Below are positions 36,644 through 41,679 of a stretch of 64,000 nt of DNA, piece after piece. The translations under genes were made by a program, and so were the position numbers. Source of the DNA: Aquipluma nitroreducens (GTDB taxonomy: Bacteria > Bacteroidota > Bacteroidia > Bacteroidales > Prolixibacteraceae); NCBI RefSeq assembly GCF_009689585.1, contig NZ_AP018694.1, forward strand, positions 2,557,001-2,621,000, given 5' to 3'. Each line of letters starts with the position of its first letter. The stretch's first letter is position 1. A model generated the notes under the pieces. It saw only the letters and a list, made by a program, of their open reading frames with translations. It did no database searches and had not been told where the DNA came from.

Positions 36644-39100
36644 ATGAAACAATATCTGGTTTTAATTGCATTCCTTATGTCGGTGAAGGTGAGTTTGGGA
36701 CAGGAATTGTGGAAGAAAGAAGCCATTAAAATGCCACCGTCGGTTTGTTATGCCTCTCCGGAGATTCACAAGTCATTTGTAAAACCGCCGGAAAGACTGA
36801 AAGCTGGTTCAACAAAAAGAGCTACAATTATGGTTGATTTTGTTGGTTTTCCGGAGGATGCAAAGGTAGCTTTTCAATACGCAGTAACGATCTGGCAAGA
36901 TTTAATTTATTCACCTGTTCCGATTCATATTCAGGCGACCTGGGAGAGCCTTGCTTCGGATGTTTTAGGAAGTTGTTCGCCATCTGATTACATTCCTAAT
37001 TTTAACTCGACTCAAATTTGGAATTGTTATTACCCCATTGCATTGGTTGAAAAAATGCTTGGTCAGGAAGTTAATTCTCCGACCGGTTACGAGATAGAAG
37101 CCTCATTCAATAAAGATTTTACAAACTGGTATTTTGGCGTTGACGGCAATACGCCTATTGACAAATATGATTTTGTTTCAACGGTTTTGCACGAACTGAC
37201 TCATGGATTGGGTTTTCACGGTTTCTTTTATTCGGATGGGAGGGGTCGCGGTGGATATGGTACCGATGGTCTGAGCGCTGCATTTGACCAATATGTAATC
37301 AATCAAAATGCAGAAAAACTGGTAAACACAAAGATCTTTACAAATCCATCAGTTAAATTGTATCAAACTTTTACTTCCGGATGGCTTAATTTTAGTACGA
37401 AATTAGACCTGGATTCTTTGCCCAGGCTTTACGCACCAACGACCTGGGATAGCGGTTCGAGCATTTACCATTTGAACGATGATACCTATCCAGCGGGTGA
37501 TTCCAACTCACTAATGACACATGCAATGGGGAAGGGTGAGGCCAATCATAATCCGGGACCCAATACTCTTGCAATTATGTATGATATGGGATGGAAATCG
37601 GTTTCAATTAAACATACGCCGATTAAAGATATTGAATATGTTACTGACCCAATCAATTTTGAAGCGAAAATTGAGAGTGATTACGATCTGGATTCGACCA
37701 AATTATACCTGATTTACTCATCAACCAAATTTGTGAAAAAAGATTCTGTTCGCTTGATGCCAACAAGTAACTCCGCCATTTTCAATGTAAAAATAAAACC
37801 TACCCAAACAGGCGAAATTCAGTATTATTTTTCGGCCAGGGATGTGAAAAAGCGGACATTTGTATTTCCATCCAATTCGCCAACAAGGTATCTGGCTTTT
37901 ACAATTGGAATTGATAAAACCGCACCAGTCATAACGCACGATCCAATTAAGTTTCTTTTGTCATCAAACCCAACGGCAAAAATTACTGCTTTTGTAACTG
38001 ATAATATTGGAATAAAGTCAGTTAAGGTGGCTTACTTTGTTAACGGTGGACTAATCCAGGAGTTAGCATTGGCCAATGATTCAGCAGAGCGGTACATCGG
38101 AAACCTGACTTTCCCCAAAGGATCAGTTAAAGGTGGAGATATTGTCAGTTACCGGATTGTAGCCACCGATATTTCTTCGCAAAGCAACATCGGGTATTTG
38201 CCTTTAACTGGATATAACACCTTTAAAATTGAAGAAATTAAAGATCCCGTCGAGCGGTATATTACAAATTTTGATGCCTTGAATCCCGATTTTATTGGTT
38301 CCGATTTTACTATTTCGAGCGTTACCGGATTCGACAGTCCGGCGTTGAATTCAGCGCATCCGTATTTGAGTCCCGATACCGATAATGAAGAGTTTAATTT
38401 CAGTACAATTTTGAAATTCCCGATCATCCTAAAAAATGGAAAGATGACTTTTGATGAAATTGCATTGGTTGAACCAGGCGAAACGGGTTCTAAATTTGGT
38501 GATGAAAATTTCTGGGATTACGTGATTGTTGAAGGTTCAAAGGATGGTGGAATCAGTTGGAAGCCTTTTGCTGACGGGTACGACAGTAATTTTCAGCCCT
38601 CGTGGCTCAAGTTATGGAACAGTTCAATGTCGGGAAATAATAGCACTGCAGTACCCACCAAAGATTTGTTTGTGAAACATCCTACAATTGATATGCTGGA
38701 AAATGGAAATTTCAGCGTGGGCGATGTTGTTTTGGTTAGGTTTCGGCTATTTTCCGATCCATATTCGCATGGTTGGGGCTGGATTATAGATAATCTGGCC
38801 ATTCAGGATTGGGAAACGGCTGTCAATCCTACGCTTTTATCTTCAGGAGAAGTAATTTGTTTCCCTAATCCGGTAAAAGATCAGTTGAACATCGAGATTA
38901 GTGCAAAAAATACAATCCAGAAGTTGATTCTGAGGGCTTATAATTCGTCAGGAAAGCAGGTTTATATTCAGGATTTCCCCGTCAGATCTAATTTGTTTGA
39001 AACTGCAATTGATGTGAGTAGTTTTATACCTGGCTTATATTTATTTACTTTCGAACCTGAAAAAGGAGAGGTAATTACCCGGAAAATATTAGTTCAATAA
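36644..39100 (+). CDS. Secreted metzincin-like metalloprotease with T9SS sorting domain
   Basis: An 818-residue secreted protein: signal peptide (1-19), then a catalytic region with the zinc motif HELTHGLGFH at residues 183-192, fitting the HExxHxxGxxH metzincin pattern. Downstream are two or three beta-sandwich domains (about 325-560) and a jellyroll-like region with GDVVLVRFRLF and GWGWIIDNL. The C-terminus (about 735-818, starting CFPNPVKDQLNIEI and ending RKILVQ) is a type A type IX secretion sorting domain, so the protein should be exported and anchored or released outside the cell. Preceded by a 194-base AT-rich gap with no gene. Confidence 0.9.
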   Translation: MKQYLVLIAFLMSVKVSLGQELWKKEAIKMPPSVCYASPEIHKSFVKPPERLKAGSTKRATIMVDFVGFPEDAKVAFQYAVTIWQDLIYSPVPIHIQATWESLASDVLGSCSPSDYIPNFNSTQIWNCYYPIALVEKMLGQEVNSPTGYEIEASFNKDFTNWYFGVDGNTPIDKYDFVSTVLHELTHGLGFHGFFYSDGRGRGGYGTDGLSAAFDQYVINQNAEKLVNTKIFTNPSVKLYQTFTSGWLNFSTKLDLDSLPRLYAPTTWDSGSSIYHLNDDTYPAGDSNSLMTHAMGKGEANHNPGPNTLAIMYDMGWKSVSIKHTPIKDIEYVTDPINFEAKIESDYDLDSTKLYLIYSSTKFVKKDSVRLMPTSNSAIFNVKIKPTQTGEIQYYFSARDVKKRTFVFPSNSPTRYLAFTIGIDKTAPVITHDPIKFLLSSNPTAKITAFVTDNIGIKSVKVAYFVNGGLIQELALANDSAERYIGNLTFPKGSVKGGDIVSYRIVATDISSQSNIGYLPLTGYNTFKIEEIKDPVERYITNFDALNPDFIGSDFTISSVTGFDSPALNSAHPYLSPDTDNEEFNFSTILKFPIILKNGKMTFDEIALVEPGETGSKFGDENFWDYVIVEGSKDGGISWKPFADGYDSNFQPSWLKLWNSSMSGNNSTAVPTKDLFVKHPTIDMLENGNFSVGDVVLVRFRLFSDPYSHGWGWIIDNLAIQDWETAVNPTLLSSGEVICFPNPVKDQLNIEISAKNTIQKLILRAYNSSGKQVYIQDFPVRSNLFETAIDVSSFIPGLYLFTFEPEKGEVITRKILVQ

Positions 39101-39112
39101 CGGTGAAATGGA

Positions 39113-39250
39113 GTCCACTCCGAAAGGTCAAAAAACCCCTAAATCCCCTGAAGGGGACTTTAAAGGTTCATTGGTTTTCAACGAGTTCCCCTTTAGGGGT
39201 CAGGGGTGAGGAAGTTGAAAATCAATGAACTCAGAACTTTCGGAGTAGAC
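39113..39250. repeat. MITE-like hairpin repeat, 138 bp
   Basis: The ends are 14-base inverted repeats, GTCCACTCCGAAAG (39113-39126) and CTTTCGGAGTAGAC (39237-39250), differing at one base. Inside, 39166-39182 pairs with 39214-39230 over 17 bases with one G-U pair, and CCCCTTTAGGGG forms a further hairpin at 39188-39199. The nested structure with imperfect terminal repeats looks like a small non-autonomous mobile element or REP-type repeat. No coding capacity. Confidence 0.7.
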
Positions 39251-39367
39251 TTATGAATTGGATATCGCAACTTTAAATATTTGTTAAGCTTCGGAACGTA
39301 AAAATCAGTTTATTAATGGTTTATTGAAATTAATTACGGATATGCAGTTCTTTTTCTTTCCTGAAAT

Positions 39368-39396
39368 TTTGATTTGAAATAAAAACTCTATATTTG
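39368..39396 (+). promoter_or_regulatory. Promoter of the aromatic amino acid operon
   Basis: TTTG at 39368-39371 and TATATTTG at 39389-39396 match the Bacteroidota -33 and -7 elements, spaced 17 bases (usual 19 or so). Transcription would start near 39403, just ahead of the leader peptide ATG at 39416. Confidence 0.7.
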
Positions 39397-39415
39397 CCAA
39401 CATATTGAAAGCAAA

Positions 39416-39490
39416 ATGAAACGTACAGGTAACAACAGTTTTTATTATTGGTTTTATTACTTCTGTTCTCAAATCGGGATCGGCTGGTAA
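39416..39490 (+). CDS. Aromatic amino acid leader peptide (24 residues)
   Basis: A short frame opens with ATG at 39416 and stops with TAA at 39488-39490. Residues 9-16 read FYYWFYYF, eight aromatic residues in a row (three Phe, four Tyr, one Trp), and the last residue is again Trp. A strong terminator follows 30 bases later and the next genes make aromatic amino acids. This is the pattern of a transcription-attenuation leader: a ribosome stalled on scarce charged aromatic tRNA would expose an alternative pairing. Chance is very unlikely. Confidence 0.9.
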   Translation: MKRTGNNSFYYWFYYFCSQIGIGW

Positions 39491-39517
39491 TGTCTTGTTG
39501 TTACAAAAAGATATTTT

Positions 39518-39553
39518 ACAAAAGGGTCCCGTGTTAAACGGGGCCCTTTTTTT
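39518..39553 (+). terminator. Attenuator terminator of the aromatic operon
   Basis: GGGTCCCG (39524-39531) pairs with CGGGGCCC (39539-39546), extended by A-T pairs on both sides, and is followed by seven T residues (39547-39553). An alternative pairing can occupy its left arm: CGGGATC (39475-39481, inside the leader peptide) with 39525-39531. A second pairing, GTAACAACA (39429-39437) with TGTTGTTAC (39495-39503), could switch according to ribosome position. Confidence 0.88.
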
Positions 39554-39554
39554 A

Positions 39555-39681
39555 TTTAGCCCCCTTCCCGTTCCCACAAATGGGGGAAGGCTTTGGGAGG
39601 TAGTTTGATAAAATATAACTGAAATAAGCAATTGCCTTTTTTAAGCCTCCCCTTTTGGGGGAGGTTTGGAGGGGGCTTAAA
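39555..39681. repeat. Hairpin-rich repeat between attenuator and prephenate dehydrogenase
   Basis: The ends, TTTAGCCCCCTTCC (39555-39568) and GGAGGGGGCTTAAA (39668-39681), are near-perfect inverted repeats. Inner hairpins include CCTTCCC with GGGGGAAGG and CCTCCCC with GGGGGAGG. This G/C-block composition differs sharply from its surroundings. It resembles the short mobile intergenic repeats common in Bacteroidota. It ends 10 bases before the prephenate dehydrogenase start and would be in its mRNA leader. Confidence 0.65.
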
Positions 39682-39691
39682 ATATACGTAT

Positions 39692-40585
39692 ATGAAACTT
39701 ACAGTTATTGGTTTGGGATTGATTGGAGGCTCGATGGCAATCGATCTTCGGAAAGCCAGATTTACGCAAGAAATTACCGGCGTGGATGCCAATCCTGAAA
39801 ATGCTCATGAAGCGTTGCGTTTGGGAATAATTGACCGTATTGATTCGCTTGAAGGTGCTGTAGAGAAAGCCGATATGGTAATTATTGCCATTCCGGTTGA
39901 TAAAGTTTTGAATACTTTGACTACAGTCCTTGATTTGATTTCAGACCAGACTACTGTAATTGATGTGGGTTCGACTAAAAAGCTGATTGCCCAGGCTGTC
40001 GAAAATCATCCGAAGCGTAGAAATTATGTGGCTGCACATCCAATGTCGGGCACCGAAAATTCAGGTCCAACAGCTGCTTTGGAAGGTTTGTTCGAAGGTA
40101 AAATCAACATCATTTGCGATCAGGAAAAATGTGGCCCGCAGCATTTGGCCTTTGCTGAAAAGGTGTTTCAGGTGTTGGGAATGGACATAGCTTACATGAC
40201 TTCCGATGAGCAGGATCACAGCACAGCTTTTATCTCGCATCTTCCACATGCTGCTGCTTTTGCCCTGGCCAATGCTGTACTCGATAAAGAAGACCGCGAA
40301 ATTATTTTCGATCTGGCAAGTGGAGGTTTCAACTCAACGGTTCGTTTGGCCAAGAGTTCTCCTGAAATGTGGGGTCCAATTTTTCAACAAAACAAGCAAT
40401 ACATTGTTGAATCGCTCGATGTTTACATCAAACACCTGAAAGCATTCCGGAAAAGTATTGAATCTGATCCTCAGGAAATGATGGCTTTGATGAAAAATGC
40501 CAACCGAATTCGTGGAATTTTAGCTGGCGACAGCGATTCGCTCGTAAAAAATGAAAAGACAATAGTTAAACTTTATACCAAATAA
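39692..40585 (+). CDS. tyrA: Prephenate dehydrogenase
   Basis: A 297-residue NAD(P)-dependent dehydrogenase. Rossmann motif: VIGLGLIGGSMAIDL; active-site region: AAHPMSGTENSGP; helical C-terminus: SHLPHAAAFALANAV. It converts prephenate to 4-hydroxyphenylpyruvate for tyrosine. The ATG at 39692 starts right at the conserved strand; an upstream ATG at 39632 would read through the repeat and is rejected. It is the first structural gene of the attenuated operon, two bases before the DAHP synthase gene. Confidence 0.95.
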   Translation: MKLTVIGLGLIGGSMAIDLRKARFTQEITGVDANPENAHEALRLGIIDRIDSLEGAVEKADMVIIAIPVDKVLNTLTTVLDLISDQTTVIDVGSTKKLIAQAVENHPKRRNYVAAHPMSGTENSGPTAALEGLFEGKINIICDQEKCGPQHLAFAEKVFQVLGMDIAYMTSDEQDHSTAFISHLPHAAAFALANAVLDKEDREIIFDLASGGFNSTVRLAKSSPEMWGPIFQQNKQYIVESLDVYIKHLKAFRKSIESDPQEMMALMKNANRIRGILAGDSDSLVKNEKTIVKLYTK

Positions 40586-40587
40586 TC

Positions 40588-41679
40588 ATGGCGTTAGAAT
40601 TAGAAATTAATCCAATTAAGCACTGGTTGCCACAAATTAACAACCCGCTTATTATTGCTGGTCCTTGCAGCCTCGAAACCGAAGAGCAGGCCATGGATAC
40701 AGCCAAGCAACTTGCAAAAGATCATCGTGTATTTGTATATCGTGGTGGAGTTTGGAAACCACGCACTCGTCCCGGAAGCTTCGAAGGTATCGGAAGCATT
40801 GGCCTGAAATGGTTGCAAATGGTTCGCGAAGAAACCGGAATGCCTGTTGGAACTGAAGTTGCCAATGCGCAACATGCCGAAGAAGCCCTGAAAGCTGGGT
40901 TGGATGTTCTGTGGATTGGTGCCCGTTCAACGGCTAGCCCTTTTGTGGTTCAGGAAATCGCCGATGTTGTCAGAGGTACCGATGCGGTAGTTATGGTGAA
41001 AAATCCGGTTAATCCCGATGTTCAACTTTGGGTTGGAGCGTTCGAACGGCTTAGTCAGGCCGGAATTAAAAATCTGGTGGCCATTCACCGCGGTTTTACG
41101 CCTTTCCGCGAAACCGAATACCGGAACTATCCAAACTGGAAAACCGTAATCGAATTGCGCCGTATCATGCCGAATTTGCCAATTATCTGCGATCCGAGTC
41201 ACATTGGTGGCAAACGCGAATATTTGTACGACATTAGCCAGAAAGCATTCGATATGGGCATGGAAGGGCTGATGATCGAATCGCACCGCGACCCGTCGTG
41301 CGCGCTGAGCGACAAAGAGCAGCAACTTACACCAACCGATTTGGCTAAATTACTAGATCGTTTAATCATCCGTAACGTAAAAACCGACAATAAACTGTTC
41401 GAAAATCAACTCGAATTGTTGCGTAACCGCATTGATGCGCTCGACCGTGAATTGCTCGAAACCCTTTCGTCGCGAATGGAAATTGCGCGCCAGATTGGTC
41501 AGTATAAAAAAGAGAATAACGTCACTGCGTTTCAGGTTGGCCGTTTTGCTGAACTGATGGAAAAACGCATGAAACTGGGCGAAAGTCTCAACCTGGACCG
41601 GAACCTGGTTCAATTGCTATTCCAGCACATCCACGAAGATTCGGTGCGTATGCAAACCGAGATCATGGACAAAGAATAG
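40588..41679 (+). CDS. Bifunctional DAHP synthase / chorismate mutase type II
   Basis: A 363-residue fusion. Residues about 1-255 are a KDO8P-type (Ibeta) 3-deoxy-7-phosphoheptulonate synthase, with IIAGPCSLE, RGGVWKPRTRPGSFEG and DPSHIGGKREY. Residues about 265-355 are an AroQ-type chorismate mutase (LELLRNRIDALDRELLETLS). It catalyses the first step of the shikimate pathway and the branch step to prephenate, so with the dehydrogenase before it the operon covers entry and tyrosine exit. Fusion of this order is standard in Bacteroidota. The gene is noticeably more GC-rich than the genes 10 kb upstream. Confidence 0.96.
   Translation: MALELEINPIKHWLPQINNPLIIAGPCSLETEEQAMDTAKQLAKDHRVFVYRGGVWKPRTRPGSFEGIGSIGLKWLQMVREETGMPVGTEVANAQHAEEALKAGLDVLWIGARSTASPFVVQEIADVVRGTDAVVMVKNPVNPDVQLWVGAFERLSQAGIKNLVAIHRGFTPFRETEYRNYPNWKTVIELRRIMPNLPIICDPSHIGGKREYLYDISQKAFDMGMEGLMIESHRDPSCALSDKEQQLTPTDLAKLLDRLIIRNVKTDNKLFENQLELLRNRIDALDRELLETLSSRMEIARQIGQYKKENNVTAFQVGRFAELMEKRMKLGESLNLDRNLVQLLFQHIHEDSVRMQTEIMDKE

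Follow-up and report, generated by a model that had tools for sequence, protein, structure and literature searches.

The DNA leading into the tyrA operon of Aquipluma nitroreducens very probably encodes a ribosome-mediated transcription attenuator that senses the supply of charged tRNA for the aromatic amino acids (probability roughly 0.93), and classical attenuation of this kind is by far the best of the readings considered. The element lies on the forward strand of the window, the whole 64,000-nucleotide stretch of contig NZ_AP018694.1 that was analysed and to which coordinates refer unless the contig is named. An earlier note, made from the letters of the window, had proposed an attenuator at this place, and conserved aromatic runs together with compensatory changes, in the family and in the phylum, support that interpretation at the level of sequence comparison. 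The reading is carried by what computation shows, namely the small frame itself, selection for aromatic residues in it, helices that exclude one another, covariation within the antiterminator helix and the spacing of the leader.

The leader peptide frame, MKRTGNNSFYYWFYYFCSQIGIGW, occupies 39416-39490 (+ strand) and comprises 24 codons plus stop. It opens with ATG AAA CGT ACA GGT AAC AAC AGT, runs on with TTT TAT TAT TGG TTT TAT TAC TTC and closes with TGG TAA. The aromatic control codons are codons 9-16 (Phe Tyr Tyr Trp Phe Tyr Tyr Phe; 39440-39463, + strand), so that the frame and its FYYWFYYF are present exactly as first described. A Bacteroidota-type -7 promoter box, TATATTTG, stands at 39389-39396 (+ strand) and conforms to TAnnTTTG, which we take to be the -7 consensus of the phylum. 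The proposal of such a promoter just upstream also holds among relatives, since 43 of 44 homologues have a TAnnTTTG box that begins 26-33 nt 5' of the leader ATG; it reads TATCTTTG in loci L024 and L027, and locus L026 has only TAATTTTG, at -39. No -33 promoter element is found in the window at the spacing searched. Transcription of the leader would start at about 39400-39404. The first gene of the operon is tyrA, for prephenate dehydrogenase (39692-40585, + strand; NF006307 above cut-off, PF02153 and PF20463), with a start codon at 39692 that was chosen in this analysis, and the second encodes DAHP synthase fused to chorismate mutase (40588-41679, + strand; PF00793 and PF01817).

Chance as the origin of the frame was rejected on 3000 dinucleotide shuffles of a 441-nt region: ATG frames 12-45 codons long that reach six, seven or eight aromatics per eight residues occur in 34, 2 and 0 of them, respectively. 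The leader also folds better than expected (z = -4.2, with an equally good fold in 0 of 200 shuffles). A genome search with a profile of 21 family leaders, which itself contains the leader of this window, returns this leader as the sole place (E 7e-12, with E up to 10 allowed).

An intrinsic terminator, recognised from sequence and fold at 39520-39553 (+ strand), lies between the leader and the first structural gene. Its stem, at 39520-39550, has 13 pairs, seven of them GC, with a loop of 5, and its T-run covers 39547-39553, so that the T-tailed terminator ends where the earlier note placed it. The 5' arm of the antiterminator, CGGGATC (39475-39481, + strand), starts 11 nt past the last aromatic codon. 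Its 3' arm, GGTCCCG (39525-39531, + strand), is shared with the 5' arm of the terminator, and the two structures are thus mutually exclusive; these coordinates were already exact. The competing long-range stem exists as proposed, with arms one base off from 39429-39437 and 39495-39503: arm A covers 39429-39438 (+ strand), inside the leader frame, and pairs with arm B at 39495-39504 (+ strand). This A:B stem is less certain than the antiterminator in the sequence comparison. Between arm B and the terminator, at 39510-39519, a GATATTTTAC-like stretch is kept by eye in many relatives; it lies outside both helices and may serve in pausing or timing.

Loss of the small frame in close relatives, which had been set against the attenuator interpretation in advance, is not what is seen, and the leader is present at 44 of 46 related tyrA loci, with L002 and L046 having no upstream DNA. 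The 46 loci come from a sequence search and are mostly titled Prolixibacteraceae, Bacteroidetes/Bacteroidota, Draconibacterium or Maribellus. A second draw from the family yields a TyrA match in 40 of 41 genomes, and leader plus terminator occur at 30 of 30 loci read, which are the best-scoring 30 of the 40 matched, include L216 as a weak case and overlap the first draw (at least six leaders are identical). Of the 356 gap-free codon cells at codons 9-16 in an alignment of 45 sequences, 355 are aromatic, with TGT as the sole exception, and TTT, TTC, TAT, TAC and TGG interchange often among Phe, Tyr and Trp. This pattern points clearly to selection of the frame for aromatic residues as a class. 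The run of end-product codons in a short frame is accordingly conserved by class, and the frame would be translated.

The same arrangement is found well beyond the family. Using a fold-based terminator finder, 104 units of leader and terminator are counted in 97 of 117 sources, comprising 71 loci from order- and phylum-wide searches, 45 family loci and the window. At E up to 0.001, the order-wide search gives TyrA matches in 51 of 149 genomes, roughly one in three of these being weak, and the phylum-wide search gives synthase matches in 66 of 247; 31 and 40 loci, respectively, were read outside the family, and the occurrence stated holds for the loci read rather than as a rate. A strict terminator finder, which misses mismatched stems, detects units in 66 of 116 loci. 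A strict scan of these 116 loci (1.80 Mb, both strands counted) returns 79 matches, 77 of them upstream of aromatic biosynthesis genes: 69 are followed within 700 nt by a recognised pheA, tyrA or synthase gene, eight lie further upstream of tyrA (L101, L103, L104, L106 and L107), and two are elsewhere. Among the loci of these eight, an aminotransferase gene is confirmed for L101, L103 and L106. Operon order varies: pheA, tyrA or an aminotransferase gene (L099, L101, L103 and L106, the four checked) can come first, and at L143 and L150 the unit directly precedes the synthase gene. Despite these differences in gene order, the unit remains at the head of the genes that it precedes.

The 20 sources of the 117 in which no unit is counted are of several kinds. 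Some or all upstream DNA is absent from L002, L086 and L097, and a leader frame is visible on a looser reading at L079, L096, L104, L134, L136 and L150. No unit is found at the tyrA locus L102 or at ten loci in which a synthase/mutase homologue alone was recognised (L119, L123, L125, L128, L139, L140, L142, L145, L146 and L147); at L125 there is an aromatic frame, but a clear hairpin is absent. The unit of L120 is counted despite a doubtful terminator. The prephenate dehydratase gene of the window's own genome lies elsewhere (L047 and L110, the sole PF00800 match) and, as read from translations, adjoins an ACT-like frame and a CoA-ligase-like frame; the strict scan finds no aromatic leader in this pheA region.

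The attenuator in the window is a single unit, and two units stand in series at 8 of the 71 loci from the wider searches (L090, L095, L098, L101, L106, L107, L109 and L135); at L090 and L109 the second unit is a weaker case. L103 has two serial units in a separate scan. Serial units stand at the head of tyrA or pheA operons. A -7 box is found at five of the eight serial loci, where it always precedes the first unit and never lies between the two.

The alignment of related leaders that the earlier note had put forward as a check, for conserved aromatic runs and compensatory stem changes, is positive in the family and in the phylum. In alignment A1 (45 sequences), 97.5% of the cells of the antiterminator helix are paired, a value as high in 9 of 500 shuffles. 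Alignment A3 consists of 41 rows chosen from 72 leader rows (45 from A1 and 27 further), with the doubtful L216, rows nearly identical to one another and some further rows omitted. In A3, 96.9% of cells are paired, 12 cells are changed on both sides (CG to GC or AU, GC to AU) and the covariation score is 0.269, each of which is reached in 0 of 500 shuffles; the number of pairs with a both-side change, three, is equalled by 139 of 500. Sliding the partners in A3 leaves at most 61.3% of cells paired, and the +2 slide has 13 doubly changed cells at 28.6% paired. The antiterminator is therefore both exclusive with the terminator and kept by compensatory change.

An alignment-free swap test compares pairing of an arm with its own partner and with the partner of another unit. 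For the antiterminator, 0 of 5000 permutations reach the observed value in the 45 family units and in the 59 units of other families, with means for own versus swapped partners of -10.5 versus -10.0 kcal/mol in the family and -10.2 versus -7.4 kcal/mol elsewhere; the sequences tested are related, so the permutations are not independent. The swap test was also used for the A:B stem because arm B is shifted, by eye, in the Draconibacterium-like rows of A1, and it gives 0 of 5000 permutations in the family units and 2 of 5000 in the others; the stem is weaker outside the family. On A1, a MAFFT alignment, 75.7% of A:B cells are paired (as high in 16 of 500 shuffles), and four of five measures do not set the stem apart from shuffles. 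This count stands against a simple claim for the A:B stem.

The spacing of the leader is suited to control by a ribosome. The distance from the last aromatic codon to the start of the antiterminator arm has a median of 11 nt in the 45 family units and 10 nt in the 59 others. In the fold models, a ribosome is represented by an assumed 31-nt mask, which covers the first base of the A-site codon with 17 nt on its 5' side and 13 nt on its 3' side, and the transcript of the window is folded before the 3' arm of the terminator exists. Under this model, the antiterminator has a probability of 0.96-0.99 as long as the ribosome stands between the start codon and codon 16; the value falls to 0.53 at codon 17 and is 0 for every position between codon 18 and the stop. 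In the model the switch point is thus the end of the aromatic run, and with the assumed footprint the position of a stalled ribosome would select the structure. When the ribosome is placed on the last run codon, upstream pairing of the terminator arm exceeds a probability of 0.5 in 103 of the 104 units, and when it is placed at the stop, in 27; mean upstream pairing is 0.94, versus 0.65 with a shuffled spacer. This measure counts any upstream pairing and therefore overstates pairing at the stop codon, where the window itself scores 0.57; the specific antiterminator helix is tracked in the model of the window. In the truncated transcript without a ribosome, the antiterminator is favoured over A:B. 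The full-length terminator is always the more stable structure at equilibrium in the model, and readthrough would therefore need kinetic persistence of the antiterminator.

In the proposed mechanism, a ribosome would trail RNA polymerase through the leader. When Phe-, Tyr- or, here, also Trp-tRNA is short in its charged form, the ribosome would stall at codons 9-16. A ribosome stalled on most codons of the run would cover arm A wholly or partly and leave 39475-39481 free to pair with 39525-39531 as it emerges, so that the terminator would come too late and polymerase would continue into tyrA and the DAHP synthase/chorismate mutase gene. When the supply is good, the ribosome would pass codon 17 toward the stop and cover the antiterminator arm, and the terminator would form. 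After release of the ribosome, pairing of arm A with arm B may keep the antiterminator arm within a closed loop.

The alternative that survives best accepts attenuation and limits the signal to Phe and Tyr, with the single Trp codon incidental; it is possible and the less likely of the two. The run includes Trp in only 27 of the 45 units from the family and in 18 of the 59 others, the first gene of the operon serves tyrosine, and the trpE-like gene of the same genome (Chorismate_bind) has separate Trp leaders. These lie in series at about 1618870-1619130 of the contig, MIQNTNTIWLPWWGLLSKK (the IWLPWW type, with a hairpin seen by eye) and then MKNIWWWHRNFSQYRGRK (the WWW type, with a terminator found by script). 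Both occur in 19 of 30 family loci read, or 18 of 29 without the own genome, the 30 being the best-scoring of 39 matched genomes; an automatic count of 20 includes false upstream frames at L164 and L165 and misses the own genome. Against the limitation to Phe and Tyr, the Trp codon is always kept in the near relatives (L001, L003-L020 and L041), and a ribosome at codon 12, the Trp codon, is permissive for the antiterminator in the fold model. In general pathway terms, moreover, DAHP synthase supplies the tryptophan pathway as well. Sensing of Trp at this locus is plausible from the sequences. The claim that the leader senses all three aromatic amino acids therefore fits the leader of this clade and does not extend to the element in general, because the run has only Phe and Tyr codons in many relatives. 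On balance, we lean toward a broader form of the attenuation reading, in which a pan-aromatic attenuator spread across Bacteroidota would follow the rearranged terminal shikimate operon, would occur in a single form and in a serial form with two leader-terminator units per transcript, and would read the aromatic pool as a class and not one amino acid.

It is highly improbable that the leader acts through a nascent peptide or by binding a ligand, as a riboswitch does, instead of sensing tRNA codon by codon. Residues outside the run are conserved, NN before it and GS..GI after it, as a sensor of that type might show. These flanks overlap arm A and the antiterminator arm, however, so that RNA pairing can explain their conservation, and within the run it is the aromatic class that is kept rather than the identity of the residue. 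Rfam likewise has no family at its gathering threshold in the window, where the permissive matches at the leader all score far below theirs, and none matches at the leader in 16 other loci, among which there is one Flavo-1 match away from it. A small RNA or an Rfam riboswitch was rejected as a candidate on this absence of any family at threshold in the window. Least probable of all, at the edge of what need be considered, is that the terminator is the ordinary transcript end of the upstream gene (36644-39100, same strand), behind which a terminator would be unremarkable, and that the small frame is untranslated: this was rejected because a conserved promoter box separates the leader from that gene, the frame is under selection for amino acid class, the antiterminator covaries and a like element precedes operons of varied gene order across the phylum.

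Codon-by-codon attenuation of this layout is classic in Proteobacteria, where the pheA (pheL), pheST and trp leaders each encode a short peptide with many residues of the amino acid under control, can form either an antiterminator or a terminator, and precede the cognate operon. The leader in the window is like the Phe and trp leaders in each of these respects, and differs from them in belonging to another phylum, in its mixed Phe/Tyr/Trp run, in an operon of prephenate dehydrogenase and DAHP synthase/chorismate mutase, and in an antiterminator arm that begins about 11 nt after the control codons. The Rfam Phe_leader family (RF01859) scores 21.2 bits at the leader, below its gathering threshold of 55. 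Bacteroid-trp RNA is linked to trp operons and leader peptides, and serves Trp, unlike the mixed aromatic leader described here. Its family, RF01692, has no match at threshold in the window and three weak matches elsewhere in the genome, the best of which (30.7 bits, threshold 49) lies upstream of the trpE-like gene. According to the accessible part of its source, Bacteroid-trp is an RNA motif of Bacteroidetes (PMC2864571).

Closest to the present element is a report from the same phylum. The accessible text of a Flavobacterium psychrophilum transcriptome study (2021) gives strong clues that amino acid operons are attenuated through leader peptides and describes, at pheA, a structured 5' element that is conserved in other Flavobacteriaceae genera and has no Rfam hits (PMC9723704). 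The likeness to the leader in the window is one of description, sequences apart, and for that element the text sets out neither the sequence of a leader peptide nor a scheme of pairing or covariation (PMC9723704). It is probably the same type of element, at the pheA-first form of the operon. In Bacteroides thetaiotaomicron, a transcript map notes small frames in 5' UTRs that are reminiscent of leader peptides, as far as the accessible text goes (PMC7366714). For the serial units, the accessible part of a 2012 article offers Salmonella mgtCBR, whose tandem attenuators in one leader it calls singular; as here, two leader frames lie in one mRNA and one, mgtP, senses charged tRNA, but the two respond to different signals, whereas the serial units described here concern one amino acid class and have a terminator each (PMC3641672). 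Within the literature covered, which leaves most subscription papers outside, no title or beginning of an abstract describes the present leader in Bacteroidota. To call such a leader little described, as the earlier note did, is fair in that sense, and it is not undescribed given the leader-peptide clues and the pheA element in the accessible text on F. psychrophilum (PMC9723704).

With the mechanism already classic, what is added is an explicit leader, covariation, the geometry of the ribosome edge, the reach across families and the serial forms. The attenuator offers a concrete, testable control point for aromatic amino acid synthesis in Bacteroidota. In many families the antiterminator arm starts about one ribosome edge past the control codons, and a ribosome would therefore have to follow RNA polymerase closely. 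If true, a pan-aromatic attenuator implies close coupling of transcription and translation in the phylum, which becomes directly testable through these leaders. The serial form raises the question of what is gained from two attenuators for the same amino acids in series.

Some features of the surrounding DNA were noted in passing. Between the attenuator and tyrA (39556-39690), and again 5' of the promoter (39127-39215), the DNA is C/G-rich and palindrome-like by eye; a repeat finder raises no flag at either place, and a 19-base core is single-copy in the window. The distance from leader to tyrA is longer in the relatives L003, L004, L012, L013, L018 and L033, which would fit a tolerance of inserts at this place. 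Upstream of the promoter region, an 18-nt inverted repeat (39112-39129 and 39234-39251, 89% complementary) encloses a stretch of 104 nt.
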